From Streptomyces cynarae (GTDB lineage: Bacteria; Actinomycetota; Actinomycetes; Streptomycetales; Streptomycetaceae): a stretch of DNA of 64,000 nt. The stretch is taken from contig NZ_CP106793.1 in the NCBI RefSeq assembly GCF_025642135.1, positions 7,284,001-7,348,000 on the forward strand. The letters run 5' to 3'. Below are positions 27,650-49,666 of the stretch, one piece after another. The position numbers and the translations under genes are program-made. How positions within the stretch are numbered: position 1 is the stretch's first letter; each line of letters starts with the position of its first letter. The notes beneath the pieces were generated by a model. The model was not told where the DNA came from. It did not search any database and saw only the letters and a program-made list of their open reading frames with translations.

Positions 27650-30600
27650 TCAGCCGACGTTCACCACCTTCCAGAGCTGGTTGTCGGTGCCCGTGTCCGT
27701 CGTCTGGACGAGCTGGGTGCCCGCTGACGTCGACGAACTGGGCACCGCCAGCACCATGTGGCTGTTCACATTCGTGATCTTGTAGTACCCGTTTCCGGCG
27801 GCGGTGAGTGTCCAGTGCTGGTTCGCGCCGCTGTCGTCGTGCCACTGGATGATGGACGCGCCGTCCGTGGTGGCACCGTTGTTGACGTCCAGCAGCTTGC
27901 CACTGTTCTGGCTGGTGATCTCGTAACTGCCGTCACCCACCGCGACGAACCGCCAGTGCTGGTTCTGCGCGCCACTGTCGTTCCACTGGATGACGCCCGC
28001 TCCGTCGGAGGTGGATCCGCCCCCGACATCGATCGCCATGCCGCTGTTCTTGTTCAGGAGCTTGTAGAACGCGTTCGTGGCGGGGAACGAGATGTTGGCG
28101 AAGGCGTCCAGCGCGCAGACGGTGTTGGACGAGGACACGTTCTTCGTTCCCGTGCACACGACCTTGATCGTGTGCGGGCCGGCGGCGAGATCCGTCTTCT
28201 CGAACAGCACCACCTGCTTCGTCACCGACGGGGCGTAGGCGTCGATGCCCGACTGCACGAGGCTGCCGTCGATGTAGACGTCCACCTTCCCCATGTTCGG
28301 CTGCTTCATGCTGAGGTACCGAATGCCGGTTCCGGTGAACGAGTACTGGACGTAGTTGCCCGCCTTGCTGGTGAAACTCTCGGACCCGTCGAAGTCCTGC
28401 GGGTCGTTCCAGTTCGACCAGCTCGGGCTGTAGGTCATTGCGGTGTTCTTGTCGTCGACGTAGTTCCATCGCTGCCGCACGATCGACTGCGACGCGGCCG
28501 ATGTGTTCCCCTGCGCGTTCACCACGTAGAGGTGGTAGTCGCCGACCGTCGGAGGAACAGCGATGCTCGACGCGGTTCCGCTTGCCTTGGTCATCGTGGG
28601 GCCGACGGCGAACGTCGTCGTGCCGGAAGGGGCCAGCCAGAGAGTCCGGGTCGAGTCGCCCGTGCCGCGCACGGGAACGGACGACTGACCCTGACCGATG
28701 AACGTGCTCGCGGGCAGGACGTAGTCCTGCAGGGCGACGTTGCTCTGGGGGACGAGGTTCTTGTACGCGTCCTCCAGGCCGGCGTTCAGGGCGATGTTGT
28801 ACGCCTGCGACGGCCACACGCCGTCCGAGTACGCCTGCACGTTCTGGATGTCGCTGTTCGGAACGTTCTTGCTGTAGATCGTGTTGACGGTGCCGTAGGT
28901 GTTGGTGATGTTCAGGTCGTGTTGGTAGCCCCAGGTACCGGAGTTGACGGCGTAGTAGACATTCGGGTCCACGTTCAGCACGTTCCTGTCGAAGGTGATG
29001 TAGGCGGAGCCTTCATCGGGGTGAAGTCCGTACTTGTGGCCGGCCGGAACGCCCTGGATGTAGTTGTTGCTGATCACCGTTCCCGGCTGGCTGCCCAGGG
29101 TGTAGATGGGAGCGGAGTCGCCGAGGGTCTGCATCGTGTCGATGATCTGGTTGTAGCTGATGGTGTTGTTCCTCGCCGTGGTGGTCGGATTGCCGGGTGA
29201 GACCGAGTTCGCCGACCCGTTGAAATTCCACCATCCCCAGCCGAGCGTGATGCCCGCCCACGGGGCCTTCTCGATGCGGTTGTGCTGCACGGACAGGGTG
29301 TCGGTGAAGTACGCCGATATGGGGCTGGACCCCTGGAACAGCACCGCGCTGTCGTAGATGTAGTTGTCGGTGATCGAGATGTTCTTGCAGACACCCTCGA
29401 CGTCGGTCGGGTACTTCTCGTTGTTCGTGGAGGTGTAGTCCCCTATGTACACGTGCTGGGGGTGGCCCACGGTGATGGCGGATCCGGCTATGTCATTCGT
29501 GTAGTTGCCGATCAACTGTGTGTTCGACACGTCGTTGACCATGTTGATTCCGTCGTCGCCGGTGTGCTGAACCGTGTTGCCCTGCAGGGTGATCCCGTCG
29601 GCGTTCTCGATCTGAATGGCGCCCGGACCGATGTCGACGTTGCGGTAGTAGTACTGGTGGAAGTTCCCGTGCGTGTACACGAACGAGTTGACGTTGCCCT
29701 GCTGGCCCTGTCGGAAGACGGAGCCGTCCACGTTGACCAGATTCCAGTCCGAGTGCTCGACCGTGAGCCCGGAGAACGTGATGTTCCGCGCGTGGTCGGT
29801 CGTGGACGTGCCCGCGATGTGGATCAGAGTCGACACTTTGTCGGGGGCCCAGACCTGAGCGGTCGTCATGTCATCAGAGCTGGACTTGTAGTAGTACAGG
29901 ATGTGGTTCGTCTTGTCGAAGTAGAACTCGCCCGGCTTGTCCAGGAACTCGTACGCGTTCATGAACGTCTGGGTGCCGCCGGCGTGGAAGTTGCCGTTGT
30001 ACGCGTACTGGGCTATTGCCGCGCCCGGCTCCTGGAACTTGGCCACGCGGTTGAGGCCGTCCGAGCTCGTGGTGATCTGGCGAACCCCCACGATGGACGT
30101 GGTCCAGGTCGTCGCCGTCTGAATCTCGACGTCGTCCTGGTTCTGGGCGATGGCGGGCAGATCGGAGAGGCTGTACTTGGCTCCGTCGCACGTCTGGCCC
30201 GACTCCCAGGCCCAGGGAGCCTGGCCGGCCGTGACGTTGTAGGTCGTTCCGTCACATCCGGCCGAGGTGATCGTCTTGGAAGCCATCACAGCGCGCTTGC
30301 CGTTGACGTAGAGCGCGCGGAGTTTGTCGTCGCGGTTCAGCGGGGCCTGCCAGATGTTCCCGCTGTGCTGGGTCCATCCGGTCACCTGGACGCCGCCGTT
30401 CAGGACCGGCTTCTCGCCCGGGTAGGCGGCGTACACGACACGGTGGCCGTTCGTGCCCGAATCGGCCGACGTGAAGTCGATCGTGCTGCTCACCGGGTAG
30501 TTGCCGCCGCGGAGATATACGTCGATGTCGCCGGTCATGTTGCTGTTCACTTTGCGCACGACGTCCCGAGCGTGCTGCAGGGTCTTGAACGGCGCTGTGA

Positions 30601-43798: not shown

Positions 43799-45445
43799 GT
43801 GACGCACACCCGAGCCCGCAGCCGGGCGGTGCACGGCGGTGACGGAGAGAAGCGGGGCCGTCCCGGGCGGAAGCTGTCGCAGGTTTTGTTCGACCTCGTC
43901 GACCAGGCGGTCGTGGTCTGTGACCCCTCCGGCGTGGTGCGCTGGTGCAACCGCCTGACCGGCGTCTACTTCCCGGGCCTGCGGCCGGGGAAGGTGCCGG
44001 ATCTCGCGGTGGCCGGACCCCTCGGGCAGGCGGTGGTCTCCTCCGCGGCGCGCTTCGACGCCGAGTTCCTCGGCCGCCGGCTGGCCGGACGCCGGAGCAC
44101 TGTGGGGGACTGTCCGGTGTGGCTCATCCGTGACGAGACCGAGGTTCGCCGCTGCGAGGTCGAGTTGCGCGCCGAACGGTCACGGACGGCATTCCTGAGC
44201 GAGGCGGGCCGACGGCTGGGGGCGTCCTTGCACCACGGGCGCACGGCCCGGGGCGTGGTGGAGCTCGCCGTGCCGGCCTTGGCGGACGCGGCGCTGCTCG
44301 TACTACCGCCGCGTGCAGGCCACGCGGACTGGTACCGCTGCGCCGCGCCGGGGGCGGCGGAGTCGGGCGCGTTGCCGGCGTCCTCCCTCGAGCGTGTGCC
44401 GCCCCTGAGGCGGGCCCTGTCGGGCCTGTGGCCGTGGCCCGCGGTCTGCCCACCGGGGCAGTTCGCCGCGCTCCGTGGGGCGCCGCCGGACCCGGGCAAG
44501 GGGGGAGGGGAGTCACTCGTGACGGCACTGCCGGGCAGCGAGGCCCCGGCGGGGGCCCTGGTTCTCTTCCGCTCGGCCGAAGCCGGGGGCTGGAACGCCG
44601 AGGACGCCGCCGTGGTGGGCGACTTCGCCTTCCGGGCCGGTATGGCGCTGTCGACCGCCGCCCTCTACGCCCAGCAGGCCCATACTGCGGACGTGCTCCA
44701 GGCGGGCCTCGATCCGGCGCCCCTGCCCGATGTGCCGGGGGTGCGGCTGGGCGCCGCCTACCGCCCCGCCCCGGGGGAACTGGGCTTCGGCGGCGACTTC
44801 TACCAGGTGGAACCTGCTCGGGACGACGGCGGAGGGGTGGAATTCGTCCTGGGGGACGTCTGCGGCAAGGGCGTCGAGGCGGCCGTACTCACCGGGCACG
44901 TCCGTCAGAGCCTGCGGACCCTGGCCCTCGTCGAGTCCCGGCCGCTCCGTGTGCTCGACGTGCTCAACCAGTCGCTGCTCGAGGCGGACTCGGGACGATT
45001 CGCCAGTTTGGTCATCGGCACCGCCCGCCCGGGCTCCGGAGGCGCCCTGGACGTCGTCCTCGCCGGCGGGGGGCATCCGCCGCCGCTAGTGCTGCGCCGC
45101 GGTGGCGCCGTGGAGGCTGTGGACGTGGGCGGGATGCTGGTCGGGGCCCTGCCCGGCCCGGAATTCGGCCAGGCCGGAGTTCACCTGGCGCCCGAGGAGC
45201 TGATCCTGCTGTACAGCGACGGGGTCACCGAGGCGCGGGGCGGCCCCGAGGGTGCCGAGGAGTACGGAGCCGAGCGGCTGGCACACGACCTGGAGGTCTG
45301 CGCGGGGATGCCTGCCGGCGCGGTCGCCGAGCGGGTCGACATGCGCGTCGCCCACTGGCTGGCCGGACGCGCCCACGACGACATCGCGGTGCTGGTCCTG
45401 CAGGCCTCGCCCGGTTCGTCCGGCACCGCCGGAGCCCCGCGGTGA
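43799..45445 (+). CDS. PAS-GAF-SpoIIE serine phosphatase (PP2C)
   Basis: A 548-residue signalling phosphatase. Residues about 26-125 form a PAS domain (LFDLVDQAVVVCDPSGVVRW), about 140-290 a GAF-like domain, and about 310-540 the SpoIIE/PP2C catalytic domain. Metal-binding acids are intact: GGDFYQV, GDVCGKG, LYSDGVTEAR and HDDIAVLVL. Such enzymes dephosphorylate STAS anti-anti-sigma proteins and thereby free stress sigma factors. Start GTG 43799 has GAGG at about 10 nt. The stop overlaps the start of a B12-binding protein by GTGA, so the two are made together; a shared role, with the B12 protein as input, is inference. No STAS or RsbW-type gene is adjacent. Confidence 0.9.
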   Translation: MTHTRARSRAVHGGDGEKRGRPGRKLSQVLFDLVDQAVVVCDPSGVVRWCNRLTGVYFPGLRPGKVPDLAVAGPLGQAVVSSAARFDAEFLGRRLAGRRSTVGDCPVWLIRDETEVRRCEVELRAERSRTAFLSEAGRRLGASLHHGRTARGVVELAVPALADAALLVLPPRAGHADWYRCAAPGAAESGALPASSLERVPPLRRALSGLWPWPAVCPPGQFAALRGAPPDPGKGGGESLVTALPGSEAPAGALVLFRSAEAGGWNAEDAAVVGDFAFRAGMALSTAALYAQQAHTADVLQAGLDPAPLPDVPGVRLGAAYRPAPGELGFGGDFYQVEPARDDGGGVEFVLGDVCGKGVEAAVLTGHVRQSLRTLALVESRPLRVLDVLNQSLLEADSGRFASLVIGTARPGSGGALDVVLAGGGHPPPLVLRRGGAVEAVDVGGMLVGALPGPEFGQAGVHLAPEELILLYSDGVTEARGGPEGAEEYGAERLAHDLEVCAGMPAGAVAERVDMRVAHWLAGRAHDDIAVLVLQASPGSSGTAGAPR

Positions 45446-46506
45446 CTGGCGCTCGCGTCGCGGCGCCGGGCGTCCGCGCCGCCTTCGACGACCACCTCGC
45501 CCACGCCGATGAGACGGGGGCGACCGCCCTCGCCCTGAGCCTGCTGCGGTCCGGTGCCTCGGCGGAGGAGGTCCTGCTCCGTCTGATCGCCCCCGCACAG
45601 GCCGCTGTCGGCACCCGGTGGGTGTCCACTCAGTGGAGCGTGGCGCAGGAGCACGCCGCCACCCACGTGAGCGAGCGCGTGGTGAGCGCCGTGGCCGCCG
45701 AGGCCTCTGCATCTCGCCCTCGGAACTCCGCGCCGGGCCGCCGTGTCCTGTGCGGGTGCGTCGAGGGGGAGCACCACACCCTGCCCGCGCGGATCGCCGC
45801 CGAGGTGCTGCGGCTGCGCGGCTTCGACCTGACGTTCCTGGGCGCCAACGTCCTCGTCCCGCGCCTGGTGTCCCACCTGCACCGGCAGGGGCCCGACCTG
45901 GTGGCCCTGTCGTGCGTGATCCCGGTATGCCTGCCTGCCGCACACCGCCTCGTCGAGTGCTCTCGGCGTGCCGGGGTGCCGGTGCTCGCGGGCGGGGCGG
46001 GCTTCGGACCCGCAGGCGTCTGGGCCCGCACGCTGGGAGCCGACCTGTACCTGCCCGATCCGGCCGCCGCTGCTGACATGCTCGCCGTACGGTGGCCCGA
46101 CACCCCACGTGAAACGGCGCCCCTGGAGCACCTGGCCGACGAGGAGTACTCCCGGATCGTCCGGCAGCGGGCCGAATTGCTGCGGCGGCTGTTCGCCCGA
46201 CTGCGCGAGCGGTACCCGTCGCTGTGCGACCCCGGCGCGGAGCATGCCGAGGCCGTTCTGGAGGAGTTCGGCCGTCTCCCGGACGTCCTGGCCGCGGCGA
46301 TCTACGTCGACGATCCGCGGGTTCTCACCGACTATCTCTCCTTCGGTGCGGCGTTCCTCCACGCCCGCGGCGTGCCCACCGCCGCTCTGGGCCTGGCCCT
46401 GGGGGCGCTGTCCGGCCCGCTCGGCGACCTTCCGCGGGCCTCCGGGCACCTGGATGCCGGGCGGCGCTGGTTGGCGGCAGCGGACCACGCCGTCCCGCCG
46501 GACTGA
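45442..46506 (+). CDS. CarH-like B12-binding sensor protein without DNA-binding domain
   Basis: A 354-residue protein, GTG 45442, translationally coupled to the PP2C gene. Residues about 15-85 are the four-helix cap of B12-binding proteins and contain W-VSTQWSVAQ-EH, an exact W-x9-EH signature; in CarH these residues sit against the upper axial adenosyl group of the light-sensitive cofactor. Residues 95-205 are the Rossmann B12 domain, with GEHHTLPARI carrying the lower-ligand His in an E-x-H-x-x-P form (the usual motif ends in G), LTFLGANVLV, LSCVIPVCL and VLAGGAGFG. The C-terminal ~135 residues are helical and unassigned. Unlike CarH there is no MerR helix-turn-helix, so the output is probably protein-protein. 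Confidence 0.85.
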   Translation: MTGARVAAPGVRAAFDDHLAHADETGATALALSLLRSGASAEEVLLRLIAPAQAAVGTRWVSTQWSVAQEHAATHVSERVVSAVAAEASASRPRNSAPGRRVLCGCVEGEHHTLPARIAAEVLRLRGFDLTFLGANVLVPRLVSHLHRQGPDLVALSCVIPVCLPAAHRLVECSRRAGVPVLAGGAGFGPAGVWARTLGADLYLPDPAAAADMLAVRWPDTPRETAPLEHLADEEYSRIVRQRAELLRRLFARLRERYPSLCDPGAEHAEAVLEEFGRLPDVLAAAIYVDDPRVLTDYLSFGAAFLHARGVPTAALGLALGALSGPLGDLPRASGHLDAGRRWLAAADHAVPPD

Positions 46507-46701: not shown

Positions 46702-47607
46702 TCACCTGTCGGTGATCTCGGAGAGCCATGCCGTGTCCTCCGGGCCGGGCGCTTCGACGCCGGGGGCGGGCAGCCAGCGGACCTCGCCCGTGCGCAGGGC
46801 GACCGTGGCACGTGGCCGCATCGGCCCGTGACCCCTGCGTGAGAGCAGGACGAGTTCCCAGACTGTCACCGTCATGGCGTCGAGCCGGGTGGCGCAGTCG
46901 GCGCTGACTCGCTGCGGATCCCGGGTCCGGCCCAGGGAAAGATGTGGGGTGAAGTTCTTGGCGGGCCCACGACAGTGCGGGAACCGCTGCTGCAGTGCGC
47001 TGTGCAGGTCCGCCCACGGCGCCGTGCCCCCCGCCGCGGGGTCGAGCCACACGGTGGAGTACGCCCTGTGCCGGAAGGTGCGCACCCCGTCCAGCCGGGC
47101 TGTGAAGACCGGCGTCTCGGCCATCGCCGCGGCGAGCAGCGGGGCGGCCCGCTCGAAGTCGGACTCCGGCACGAAGCCGAAGAGGACATTGACGTGCGGC
47201 GGCCAGCGGTGGATCTGCGGATCGTAATCCCGGCGGATGTCCTGGATCGGCGGCCACAGCTCGGCGGGCGGGATCCAGGCCACCGCCGTGCGGGTCGTCG
47301 GGGACACGCCGAGGACGCCGGCGGGATCGCCCCTGCCGGAGCTCGGGTCCGCTCGCGGGTCCCGCACCCGGCCGGCGCCCGACGCGTCGATGCGGTCCAC
47401 ACCCGTGGCGCGGTCCCAGACCACCTCGCCGTCCGCTTCGATGAACACCACCCGATGCCAGGGGATGTCGCCTCCGGGCACGAAGGAAGGCAGTGGGATG
47501 CGTTTGAAGGCATCCCCGCGCTGGCTGATCCCCAGCACGAACCGGGCCGGGTCGAACCGCGGGTCCCAGCGGATCCAGTGATAGATCTCGTCGCTGGTTC
47601 GCATCAC
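46702..47607 (-). CDS. MJ1316-like RNA-repair domain fused to 2H phosphoesterase
   Basis: A 301-residue protein with two domains. Residues 1-75 match the MJ1316/DUF504 domain, predicted to recognise RNA ends: [34 protein letters not shown] and [19 protein letters not shown]. From about 115 the chain is a 2H phosphoesterase of the LigT/2'-5' RNA ligase type, with the two His motifs HVNVLFGF and HLSLGRT. The spacing and [17 protein letters not shown] centre fit a cyclic phosphodiesterase. Joining end recognition to a 2',3'-cyclic phosphate hydrolase suggests RNA end repair or removal of cyclic ends. ATG at 47607 or 47604; purine-rich GGAGAGGGGGCG lies upstream. Confidence 0.82.
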
Positions 47608-47855: not shown

Positions 47856-48743
47856 TCAGTACCGGCGCGCGAGGACGCGTAGCGTCCTGCCCAGCGGCGG
47901 GTTCGCCGAACCGCGCAGTACCCCGGCGCCCCGTGCGAGCACCGCTTCCGCCGTGAGTAGTTCCATCTCCACCAGCGCACCTGCGAGCCGTCGGCCGTCG
48001 GCAGGGGTCAGCGCCGGGAGCTCCCTTGCCGCCAGCAAGGCGCCGCGTGCGATGGTGACCTGCTCGGCAATCAGTTCCTCCAGGGCCGAGCCGCCGATGC
48101 CGGCCGTCAAGTCGCCCATGGTGACCCCGAACCGTTCCATCGCGTCGACCGGTATGCCAACGCGTCCTTCCCGCACGTCCTCGGCGAGGTCGTTGACGAA
48201 GTCGAGCCGCTGACTGCCGTCGATGAAGGTCCGGCATGCGGCCTGGTACCGCAGGTCGTCACCTTCCGGTGCGAGCAGTCCCGCGACGAGCATGAAGGCG
48301 GGGTACGAGTAGGCGTCCACATATGCCTGGTAGTCGGCCTCCGTGGCGAAGCCCGCGAAATGCAGTTCGGCTGTGGCGGTCGCCAGGTAGGTCTCCATGA
48401 TCTCCCGCAGCTGCGGATGAGCGGACGCGGTGTGCACGAGCGCACGGAGAAGCGGGTCGTCACTCGACCCCGTCCGCAACACCTCGCGCACCTGCCGCTC
48501 CCAGGACGCCCACGCTGTCTCGCGCTGCGGCAGGGGACCGGTATCGAGAAGGTTGTCCCCGTGGTGCATCACGGCGGTCGCCGCCACCACATGCGGCAGC
48601 AACCGCCGTGGCAGCAACAGCCTGGCCGCCAGGTACGCGGTGCGCCGGAAGCGTCGCACCGTCTGCCGCTGACGGTCGTAGTCCTCACGCAACCCCGGCT
48701 CTCGGACACCAGCCGAGTCCAGGCTCTTCCTCCACCCTCGCAT
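47856..48743 (-). CDS. Divergent squalene/phytoene synthase-like protein
   Basis: A 295-residue all-alpha protein of the trans-isoprenyl head-to-head synthase fold. The first metal-binding motif is changed: HHGDNLLDTGP, where true enzymes have DDxxD-like residues; the second, DFVNDLAEDVREGRVGIP, keeps the ND-xxED-xxGR pattern. Neighbouring DGSQRLDF and YSYPAFMLVAGLLAP match the family. It may condense prenyl diphosphates to an unknown product or have lost catalysis. No carotenoid or hopanoid genes are adjacent. ATG 48743 begins the conserved part (MRGWRKSLDSAG), but there is no clear ribosome site, and an earlier in-frame start is possible. Confidence 0.72.
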   Translation of the reverse strand: MRGWRKSLDSAGVREPGLREDYDRQRQTVRRFRRTAYLAARLLLPRRLLPHVVAATAVMHHGDNLLDTGPLPQRETAWASWERQVREVLRTGSSDDPLLRALVHTASAHPQLREIMETYLATATAELHFAGFATEADYQAYVDAYSYPAFMLVAGLLAPEGDDLRYQAACRTFIDGSQRLDFVNDLAEDVREGRVGIPVDAMERFGVTMGDLTAGIGGSALEELIAEQVTIARGALLAARELPALTPADGRRLAGALVEMELLTAEAVLARGAGVLRGSANPPLGRTLRVLARRY

Positions 48744-48774
48744 GGGCCGATCGTAGGTGCGGATGCCGCAGCCA

Positions 48775-48809
48775 GCTTCCGGCTCCGGGCCGGGGCGTGT
48801 GTCCGTCGT
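48775..48809 (+). repeat. 35-bp direct repeat, copy 1
   Basis: The sequence begins GCTTCCGGCTCCGGGCCGGG and ends GTCCGTCGT. It matches the copy at 49697-49731 at 33 of 35 positions, in the same orientation, and the two flank the DUF4328 gene. It has an internal CCGGC/GCCGG stem. Confidence 0.7.
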
Positions 48810-49060
48810 TTCGGTGCCTTGGGCCGGGAGTGTCTTTATTCTTTGCGCGAGCCCTGGTGGTGACGCTTCTTCTGTGTGGCGTTGGTCCTCCTGGTGGTCG
48901 GTGACGCGGTACGACGCTGTCCTCATCGGCGCCTCTCCGTACCGGCCGTGGCCGGCAGCAGTGCTTTCGTCCCTGGGAGACCAGGGCTGCCCGAATCTGT
49001 CCAGCTGTCCGCTTCCTCGACTGTCACACAGTCGGCGCCACGAGAAGAAGGATGTCCACC

Positions 49061-49666
49061 ATGACAACACCCGATGCGAAGTCACCCCGGCTCTACGCCG
49101 GCTTCGCGCAGTGCGCGATAGCGGTGGCGGCCGTGGCGGACGTGTACCGAGCCACGGCCGTCAGGGCTCACGTCGTGCATGCCACGGACGCGTCGCTGAA
49201 GGAGTCGGGGTTCGCGTCGATGGTCTTCGTCTACGCGATGACGGCGGCAGCCGTGTTGTTCCTTGTGTGGCTGGCACGTTGTCGGCGTAACGCGCAGATT
49301 CTCACCGGTGCAACTGTCGGGGCGTCCGGTGTCTGGTCTGTCGTGGCGTGGTTCATCCCCGTGCTCAACTGGTGGTTCCCCCGCCGGTTCGTGCTGGACG
49401 TCGAGCGCGCGAGTGCCGGCGTGTCGCAGAAGGCGAGCAAAGCGACTTTGGTGAACGCCTGGTGGGCGGTCTGGGTCGCGCATCTTGTGACGGGCGCAGT
49501 GGCGTTCGCGGTGGGACAGGCATCCGCGATCGCCTTCGTCGTGGTGGCGGAGACGCTCACCATCGGCGCGGCGGTGCTGGCGATCTGCGTCATCGAACAC
49601 CTCACCCGGCTACAGGGTGCTGCGCCCGGCGCCGTGGCACATGTCGAACCGCTCGCTCAGGCCTGA
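49061..49666 (+). CDS. DUF4328-type membrane protein
   Basis: A 201-residue integral membrane protein. ATG 49061 is preferred over ATG 49052 because AGAAGG ends 9 nt before it. About five hydrophobic helices are visible, including LYAGFAQCAIAVAAVADVY, SMVFVYAMTAAAVLFLVWLA, SVVAWFIPVLNWWFPRRFV and a last pair near VVAETLTIGAAVLAICVIEHL. The W-F-I-P-x-x-N-W-x-x-P-R-R motif and RCRRNAQ loop are typical of DUF4328, a family with no known function that is common in streptomycetes. It is flanked by 35-bp direct repeats. Confidence 0.8.
   Translation: MTTPDAKSPRLYAGFAQCAIAVAAVADVYRATAVRAHVVHATDASLKESGFASMVFVYAMTAAAVLFLVWLARCRRNAQILTGATVGASGVWSVVAWFIPVLNWWFPRRFVLDVERASAGVSQKASKATLVNAWWAVWVAHLVTGAVAFAVGQASAIAFVVVAETLTIGAAVLAICVIEHLTRLQGAAPGAVAHVEPLAQA

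Follow-up and report, generated by a model that had tools for sequence, protein, structure and literature searches.

Two overlapping genes in a Streptomyces chromosome appear to form a module in which a photocobilin, a B12-dependent photoreceptor, is joined to a SpoIIE-family phosphatase of the partner-switching type. At this locus the module probably uses adenosylcobalamin (AdoCbl) photochemistry alone, with its STAS substrate encoded elsewhere. The upstream gene encodes the phosphatase (P0001); the downstream protein (P0002) is, by sequence homology, a photocobilin over nearly its full length, with an AdoCbl-binding core and a C-terminal photoglobin domain.

The pair lies in a window of 64 kb, the whole stretch of DNA analysed. 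P0002 residues were mapped onto SasPcob, the photocobilin of Saccharothrix syringae (PDB 8j2w/8j2x), using the numbering of PMC10979010. Conservation was assessed over 124 distinct loci, the better-scoring part of the matches, with the window included and some genomes contributing two. A first set of 67 loci (65 distinct) was enlarged by 59; the rows left out were L068 and L069, second copies of L009 and L008, and L192, a 10-base placeholder. The features of the pair are as follows.

43799-45445, + strand: ORF P0001, 548 aa, GTG start; SpoIIE-family PP2C phosphatase
44237-44668, + strand: GAF-like stretch, seen through relatives only (limits approximate, with profile positions 147-290 read as residue numbers)
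44825-45403, + strand: SpoIIE catalytic domain, residues 343-535 (Pfam E 1e-40)
within 44795-45382, + strand: metal-ligand aspartates D333, D353, D474, D527 and D528
45442-45445, + strand: GTGA start/stop overlap of P0001 and P0002, 4 nt
45442-46506, + strand: ORF P0002, 354 aa; photocobilin-family protein
45481-45690, + strand: four-helix cap, B12-binding_2, residues 14-83 (E 1e-10)
45619-45654, + strand: W60-x9-E70-H71 (SasPcob W61, E71, H72)
45742-46044, + strand: Rossmann-type B12-binding domain, residues 101-201 (E 3e-16)
45775-45777, + strand: H112, predicted lower cobalt ligand (SasPcob H108), within E-H-H-T-L-P
45862-45864, + strand: R141, replacing SasPcob H137 (bilin propionate salt bridge)
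46126-46479, + strand: C-terminal all-helical photoglobin (biliverdin) domain, residues ~229-346, from alignment and model
46264-46266, + strand: E275, replacing SasPcob D270 (bilin pyrrole anchor)
46342-46344, + strand: F301, replacing SasPcob W296 (touches bilin D ring and corrin)

The gene caller starts the phosphatase at 43886, and its true start could lie downstream of 43799. No Rfam family was found in the window at gathering score. On the minus strand nearby, 46702-47604 encodes an MJ1316 RNA-end recognition domain and a 2'-5' RNA ligase-like domain in one protein. At 47856-49085 on the same strand, 1.3 kb from the pair, lies a squalene/phytoene synthase-like gene (PF00494, E 5e-28), whose best NCBIfam model, HpnC, scores 58 bits against a cut-off of 250 and which clusters with no gene from the other 63 neighbourhoods. 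G+C content dips to 0.617 at 28001-30000, against about 0.70.

The identity of P0002 rests on matches that reach its C-terminus. Pfam finds the B12 cap and B12 fold and nothing further, with no helix-turn-helix (HTH) at E up to 1. In a sequence search of the PDB, residues 18-346 match SasPcob (8j2x, E 2.8e-76; 8j2w, 3.2e-76) and residues 26-339 match the photocobilin 8j2y (E 1.5e-31); for CarH chains the alignment is confined to about 19-215, with E about 1e-8. The family profile matches SasPcob at E 8.7e-129, and an AlphaFold model built from 52 sequences (mean pLDDT 92.2, pTM 0.88) has the order cap, Rossmann domain, helical domain, with helices running through 229-346. The initial annotation had described P0002 as a CarH-type B12 sensor without a DNA-binding domain. 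Its W-x9-EH motif, B12 domain and missing HTH all stand, but homology places the protein among photocobilins, and the photoglobin domain (residues ~229-346), which aligns with photocobilin structures, had been overlooked. We rejected a CarH without its HTH because the photocobilin homology continues to the C-terminus and the CarH equivalog model, whose cut-off is 400 bits, scores P0002 at only 49. Across the genome the CarH model has nine matches, none of which spans both HTH and B12 domain; by this test no CarH-type B12 sensor other than P0002 was seen there.

P0002 has the photocobilin pattern of an AdoCbl site, W-x9/10-EH with E/D-x-H, and the residues expected to hold AdoCbl are fully conserved. 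The counterparts of W61, E71, H72 and H108 are unchanged in 124/124 loci, and the last is also present in all 121 aligned sequences. The lower-ligand motif of P0002 reads E110-x-H112-x-x-P115. That it ends in proline rather than glycine had been noted correctly, but we reject its reading as an anomaly, since proline is the norm of the photocobilin family (116/121 aligned sequences, with P0002 and its 99% database copy counted, and SasPcob likewise). The MerR-type AdoCbl repressors CarH and LitR share the W-x9-EH cap and the E-x-H B12 site with P0002, which differs from them in its lack of an HTH, its photoglobin domain and the absence of a histidine after the tryptophan. That residue, directly after the tryptophan, we take to be the second histidine of the bis-His light state of CarH. 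A histidine occurs there in 0/124 loci (V61 in P0002), so a bis-His state of the CarH type is not expected in P0002.

The bilin site is another matter: the SasPcob-type contacts H137, D270 and W296 are all changed in P0002. Otherwise the two proteins are alike, both standing alone, with the same domain order, AdoCbl residues and x-x-P motif, although the window operon has no STAS gene. The changes probably amount to a variant feature that would not exclude P0002 from the photocobilins, as AbDPcob (PDB 8j2y), a fusion of photocobilin and diguanylate cyclase, also lacks D270, having histidine there. According to PMC10979010, AbDPcob has low biliverdin occupancy (~20%) and is still photoactive with AdoCbl. 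It differs from P0002 in retaining the tryptophan and in carrying its GGDEF output in the same chain, P0002 being separate and paired with a PP2C phosphatase. Caution over loss of bilin is called for because Glu275 is a conservative replacement and the nearest relative, L067 (89%), retains Asp.

The initial annotation was right that the metal ligands of the phosphatase are intact: all five aspartates are present within a clear SpoIIE match, and they are invariant in 46/46 aligned P0001 homologues. An alignment of all 114 operon partners (see below) has the five together in 112. The remaining two, L070 and L085, have an incomplete phosphatase frame and only a short match; these photocobilin-adjoining frames may reflect decay or sequencing error. 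The proposed PAS-GAF N-terminus has indirect support, through homologues and DevS GAF matches, and no Pfam match in P0001 itself, where neither domain was found at E up to 1. At E up to 0.01 Pfam reports GAF_2 in 18/46 and PAS_8 in 3/46 homologues (P0001 counted among the 46), and DevS GAF chains match positions 216-290 of the P0001-family profile (2vzw: 147-290) with E 1e-4 to 4e-3. From these matches a GAF domain in P0001 is likely and a PAS domain possible.

The two genes travel together. In the first set of 67 loci (65 distinct), 57 had a SpoIIE gene directly upstream of the photocobilin, and in 52 the two genes overlapped by 4 nt; in the full set the numbers are 114/124 and 107/124 (ATGA 72, GTGA 34, TTGA 1). 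The GTGA overlap reported earlier is thus real, with both genes on one strand, and its 4-nt form is common in the family. The window genome has 51 SpoIIE match rows (a few being pieces of one gene), so a random SpoIIE neighbour would be uncommon, and a 4-nt join recurring in 107 loci is beyond chance. Phosphatase and photocobilin distances correlate (r 0.97 over 101 loci, including 7/19 of the Phe loci described below), which adds little since linked genes are expected to correlate anyway. Scoring of 7993 candidates, a search of limited sensitivity, found no SpoIIE-photocobilin fusion at E <= 0.001. The 10 loci that have no SpoIIE gene belong to distant actinobacterial lineages (31-38% identity). 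They are L114-L118, L120, L121 and L124-L126; in L116, L121, L124 and L125 the immediate upstream gene comes from one other similarity cluster.

A third gene completes the unit in most relatives. A STAS gene lies directly downstream of the photocobilin in 80/124 loci and overlaps it by 4 nt (-4) in 71, so the conserved pairing with STAS proteins that had been proposed as a check does exist. Among downstream representatives scanned with Pfam three are STAS, and one nearby protein is HATPase_c_2. The motif DSxG is present in 78/80 operon STAS proteins (73 by regular expression and 5 read from the rows), the exceptions being L157, with DSS and no Gly, and L141, with DAPG and no Ser. Clustering of neighbourhood genes covered 64 loci (L126 was missed by the gene finder), and HATPase-type genes occur somewhere in the surrounding stretch in 16/64, one representative having been scanned with Pfam. 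In L083, L088, L090, L093 and L095 a gene of ~150-170 aa, MarR-like by eye, follows STAS; its cluster occurs also in six more stretches. In RsbU/RsbP-RsbV-RsbW, a known partner-switching system, the parallels are the intact PP2C SpoIIE phosphatase, the operon STAS of relatives with its DSxG serine and the HATPase near some of them; the differences are that the input here is a separate B12 photoreceptor and that no STAS was detected near the window. The gene order suggests that most members of the photocobilin family belong to a partner-switching operon with a B12 photoreceptor. The gene-neighbourhood claims of the Schneider 2022 photoglobin study reportedly may already include the SpoIIE-photocobilin-STAS operon.

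The partner-switching link claimed for this pair therefore holds for the family, with SpoIIE upstream and STAS downstream, but not in full at the window, where the in-operon cognate STAS gene is absent. Neither STAS nor HATPase (anti-sigma kinase) genes were detected within the 64 kb, in a search where HMMER filters hide matches weaker than about E 0.01, and the output at the window is to that extent incomplete. A profile of 14 operon STAS proteins was then applied to 20 genomes, with 150 candidates scored per genome. All seven Streptomyces genomes with STAS operons gave matches of 1e-40 to 3e-49, six having their own STAS in the query; the independent positives of the profile are G386, G106 and G148. 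The window genome, whose best match is 8e-18, belongs to a group with Phe at SasPcob position 296. A strong operon-type match is found nowhere in 10/12 genomes of this group (best 2e-15 to 8e-18). The other two, G106 and G148, have strong matches elsewhere (7e-39 and 3e-38). The STAS of G106 adjoins a second photocobilin, L148, with Trp, Asp and His present, SpoIIE upstream and STAS at -4, so both kinds of photocobilin coexist in that genome. The profile could overlook a cognate STAS that has diverged, because the divergent in-operon STAS of G588 scores at background level (9e-17).

Phe296 occurs in 19/124 loci, a derived Streptomyces group that includes the window, and none of the 19 has a STAS gene directly downstream. 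Residue 270 in these loci is F in 10, D in 6, E in 2 and V in 1 (changed in 13/19). In a tree made without columns 137, 270 and 296, 18 Phe rows form one clade (SH-aLRT 100) with one parsimony change, L146 being outside the tree. Asp270 and Trp296 are both present in 80/80 STAS-bearing loci. Among SpoIIE-linked loci STAS occurs in 0/23 with this dyad changed and is missing in 11/91 with it intact. A second lineage (L011, L119, L122, L123) has D270 changed, Trp present and no STAS. The Fisher p of 4e-16 for the association of STAS with the bilin residues ignores relatedness, Phe296 having one origin, and an independent-pairs test of F296 against STAS finds one pair only. The tie between STAS absence and bilin-site change is therefore suggestive, with one event and a second lineage behind it; STAS loss needs no bilin-site change, since the 11 SpoIIE-linked loci with Asp270 and Trp296 also lack STAS. 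Relaxed evolution of the whole globin domain is slight, the divergence ratio being 1.51 for the Phe clade against 1.37 for the STAS clade, and we do not claim it. Two further positions separate the groups. His75 of P0002 (45664-45666), one helix turn past H71, is present in 19/19 Phe296 loci against 1/104 Trp296 loci, and residue 203 is Tyr in 19/19 against Trp in 103/104; His75 and Tyr203 might possibly form a new dimer or cobalt contact. Judged by sequence, the features needed to use a bile-pigment chromophore as well seem to have been altered in the window's branch.

Measured behaviour comes from homologues, as described in PMC10979010. In SasPcob light cleaves AdoCbl and turns the dimer into monomers, and biliverdin adds red sensitivity. 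Standalone SasPcob activates or changes a separate cyclase domain in trans, with a sign that depends on biliverdin. With AdoCbl only it acted with the opposite sign, and for this reason the sign of the effect is not transferable to P0002. The same paper describes what standalone photocobilins do as 'less clear' and gives STRING-predicted Saccharothrix partners of SasPcob as STAS, SpoIIE and PP2C, so these predictions are already in print. In the literature surveyed, and as far as the portions available go, this paper alone links photocobilins to SpoIIE/STAS.

By analogy, AdoCbl would be held in P0002 between the helical cap and the Rossmann domain, with H112 below and W60, E70 and H71 around the adenosyl group. 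Light would break the Co-C bond, and the head-to-tail dimer formed in the dark would come apart. The changed photocobilin surface could then act on the co-translated PP2C phosphatase and so alter dephosphorylation of a STAS anti-anti-sigma factor, leading to release of a sigma factor. Given the conserved overlap, the obvious client of the photoreceptor is the upstream phosphatase, with STAS as the natural substrate of the latter. In most of the relatives examined the target STAS would be encoded immediately after the photocobilin. The operon of the window group has no STAS gene, the substrate presumably being encoded elsewhere, and changes affect three residues that touch biliverdin or link it to the corrin; here the module would respond from UV to green through AdoCbl photochemistry only, its bilin input weakened or absent. 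We infer a response of P0002 to light or B12 from these measured homologues (PMC10979010), and analogy likewise leads us to expect AdoCbl binding, an action on P0001 of some sign and reduced bilin binding.

That biliverdin is still bound, via Glu275 and Phe301, and that red and green are both sensed, seems unlikely to us, though the case has substance: the photoglobin domain is confidently modelled, Glu275 keeps the acid, 4/19 Phe296 loci retain both Asp270 and His137, and the genome encodes a heme oxygenase as a source of biliverdin. That last point says little, since heme oxygenase is found in 357/392 Streptomyces genomes, and we set biliverdin supply aside as a discriminator. Besides the change of D270 in most Phe296 loci, H137 is changed in 15/19, and of the positions invariant in the STAS clade and SasPcob the Phe clade retains 3/11 in the globin against 23/35 in the B12 part. 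Somewhat less likely again is a sensor of AdoCbl availability rather than light, in which AdoCbl binding would set the state of the phosphatase. When AdoCbl binds in the dark, the fused cyclase does become less active than in the apo form (PMC10979010), but P0002 keeps the W and E-H residues of photoactive B12 proteins, and PMC11796333 gives GxxW, EH, GxxH and GxxxP as a light-responsive signature. A corrinoid methyl-transfer protein like MtbC is very improbable and we reject it, for although homologues are named 'methanogenic corrinoid protein MtbC1' and the MtbC model gives 34.7 bits, its cut-off of 350 is nowhere near reached, photocobilins match much more strongly and through the C-terminal domain as well, and the recurrent neighbours are SpoIIE and STAS.

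One Streptomyces clade may have reverted from a two-chromophore receptor to a B12-only switch. Its globin would have shed the bilin contacts through W296F, with D270 and H137 eroding, and would have kept the B12 photochemistry and the overlap-coupled phosphatase; loss of the in-operon STAS would have put the phosphatase on a different sigma-factor circuit. We offer this tentatively, at somewhat less than an even chance. Matches to P0002 at E <= 1e-20 occur in 146/392 sampled Streptomyces genomes, the window's own counted, and G234, a genome classed as the same species, has none at that threshold; the module looks accessory. For the family, the SpoIIE-photocobilin-STAS unit names a likely target for standalone photocobilins and a readout, STAS phosphorylation, that lends itself to assay in vitro. 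The operon would link light to sigma-factor control across a large group of actinomycetes, and the window's clade offers a natural experiment in which the bilin contacts of this sensor are changed.
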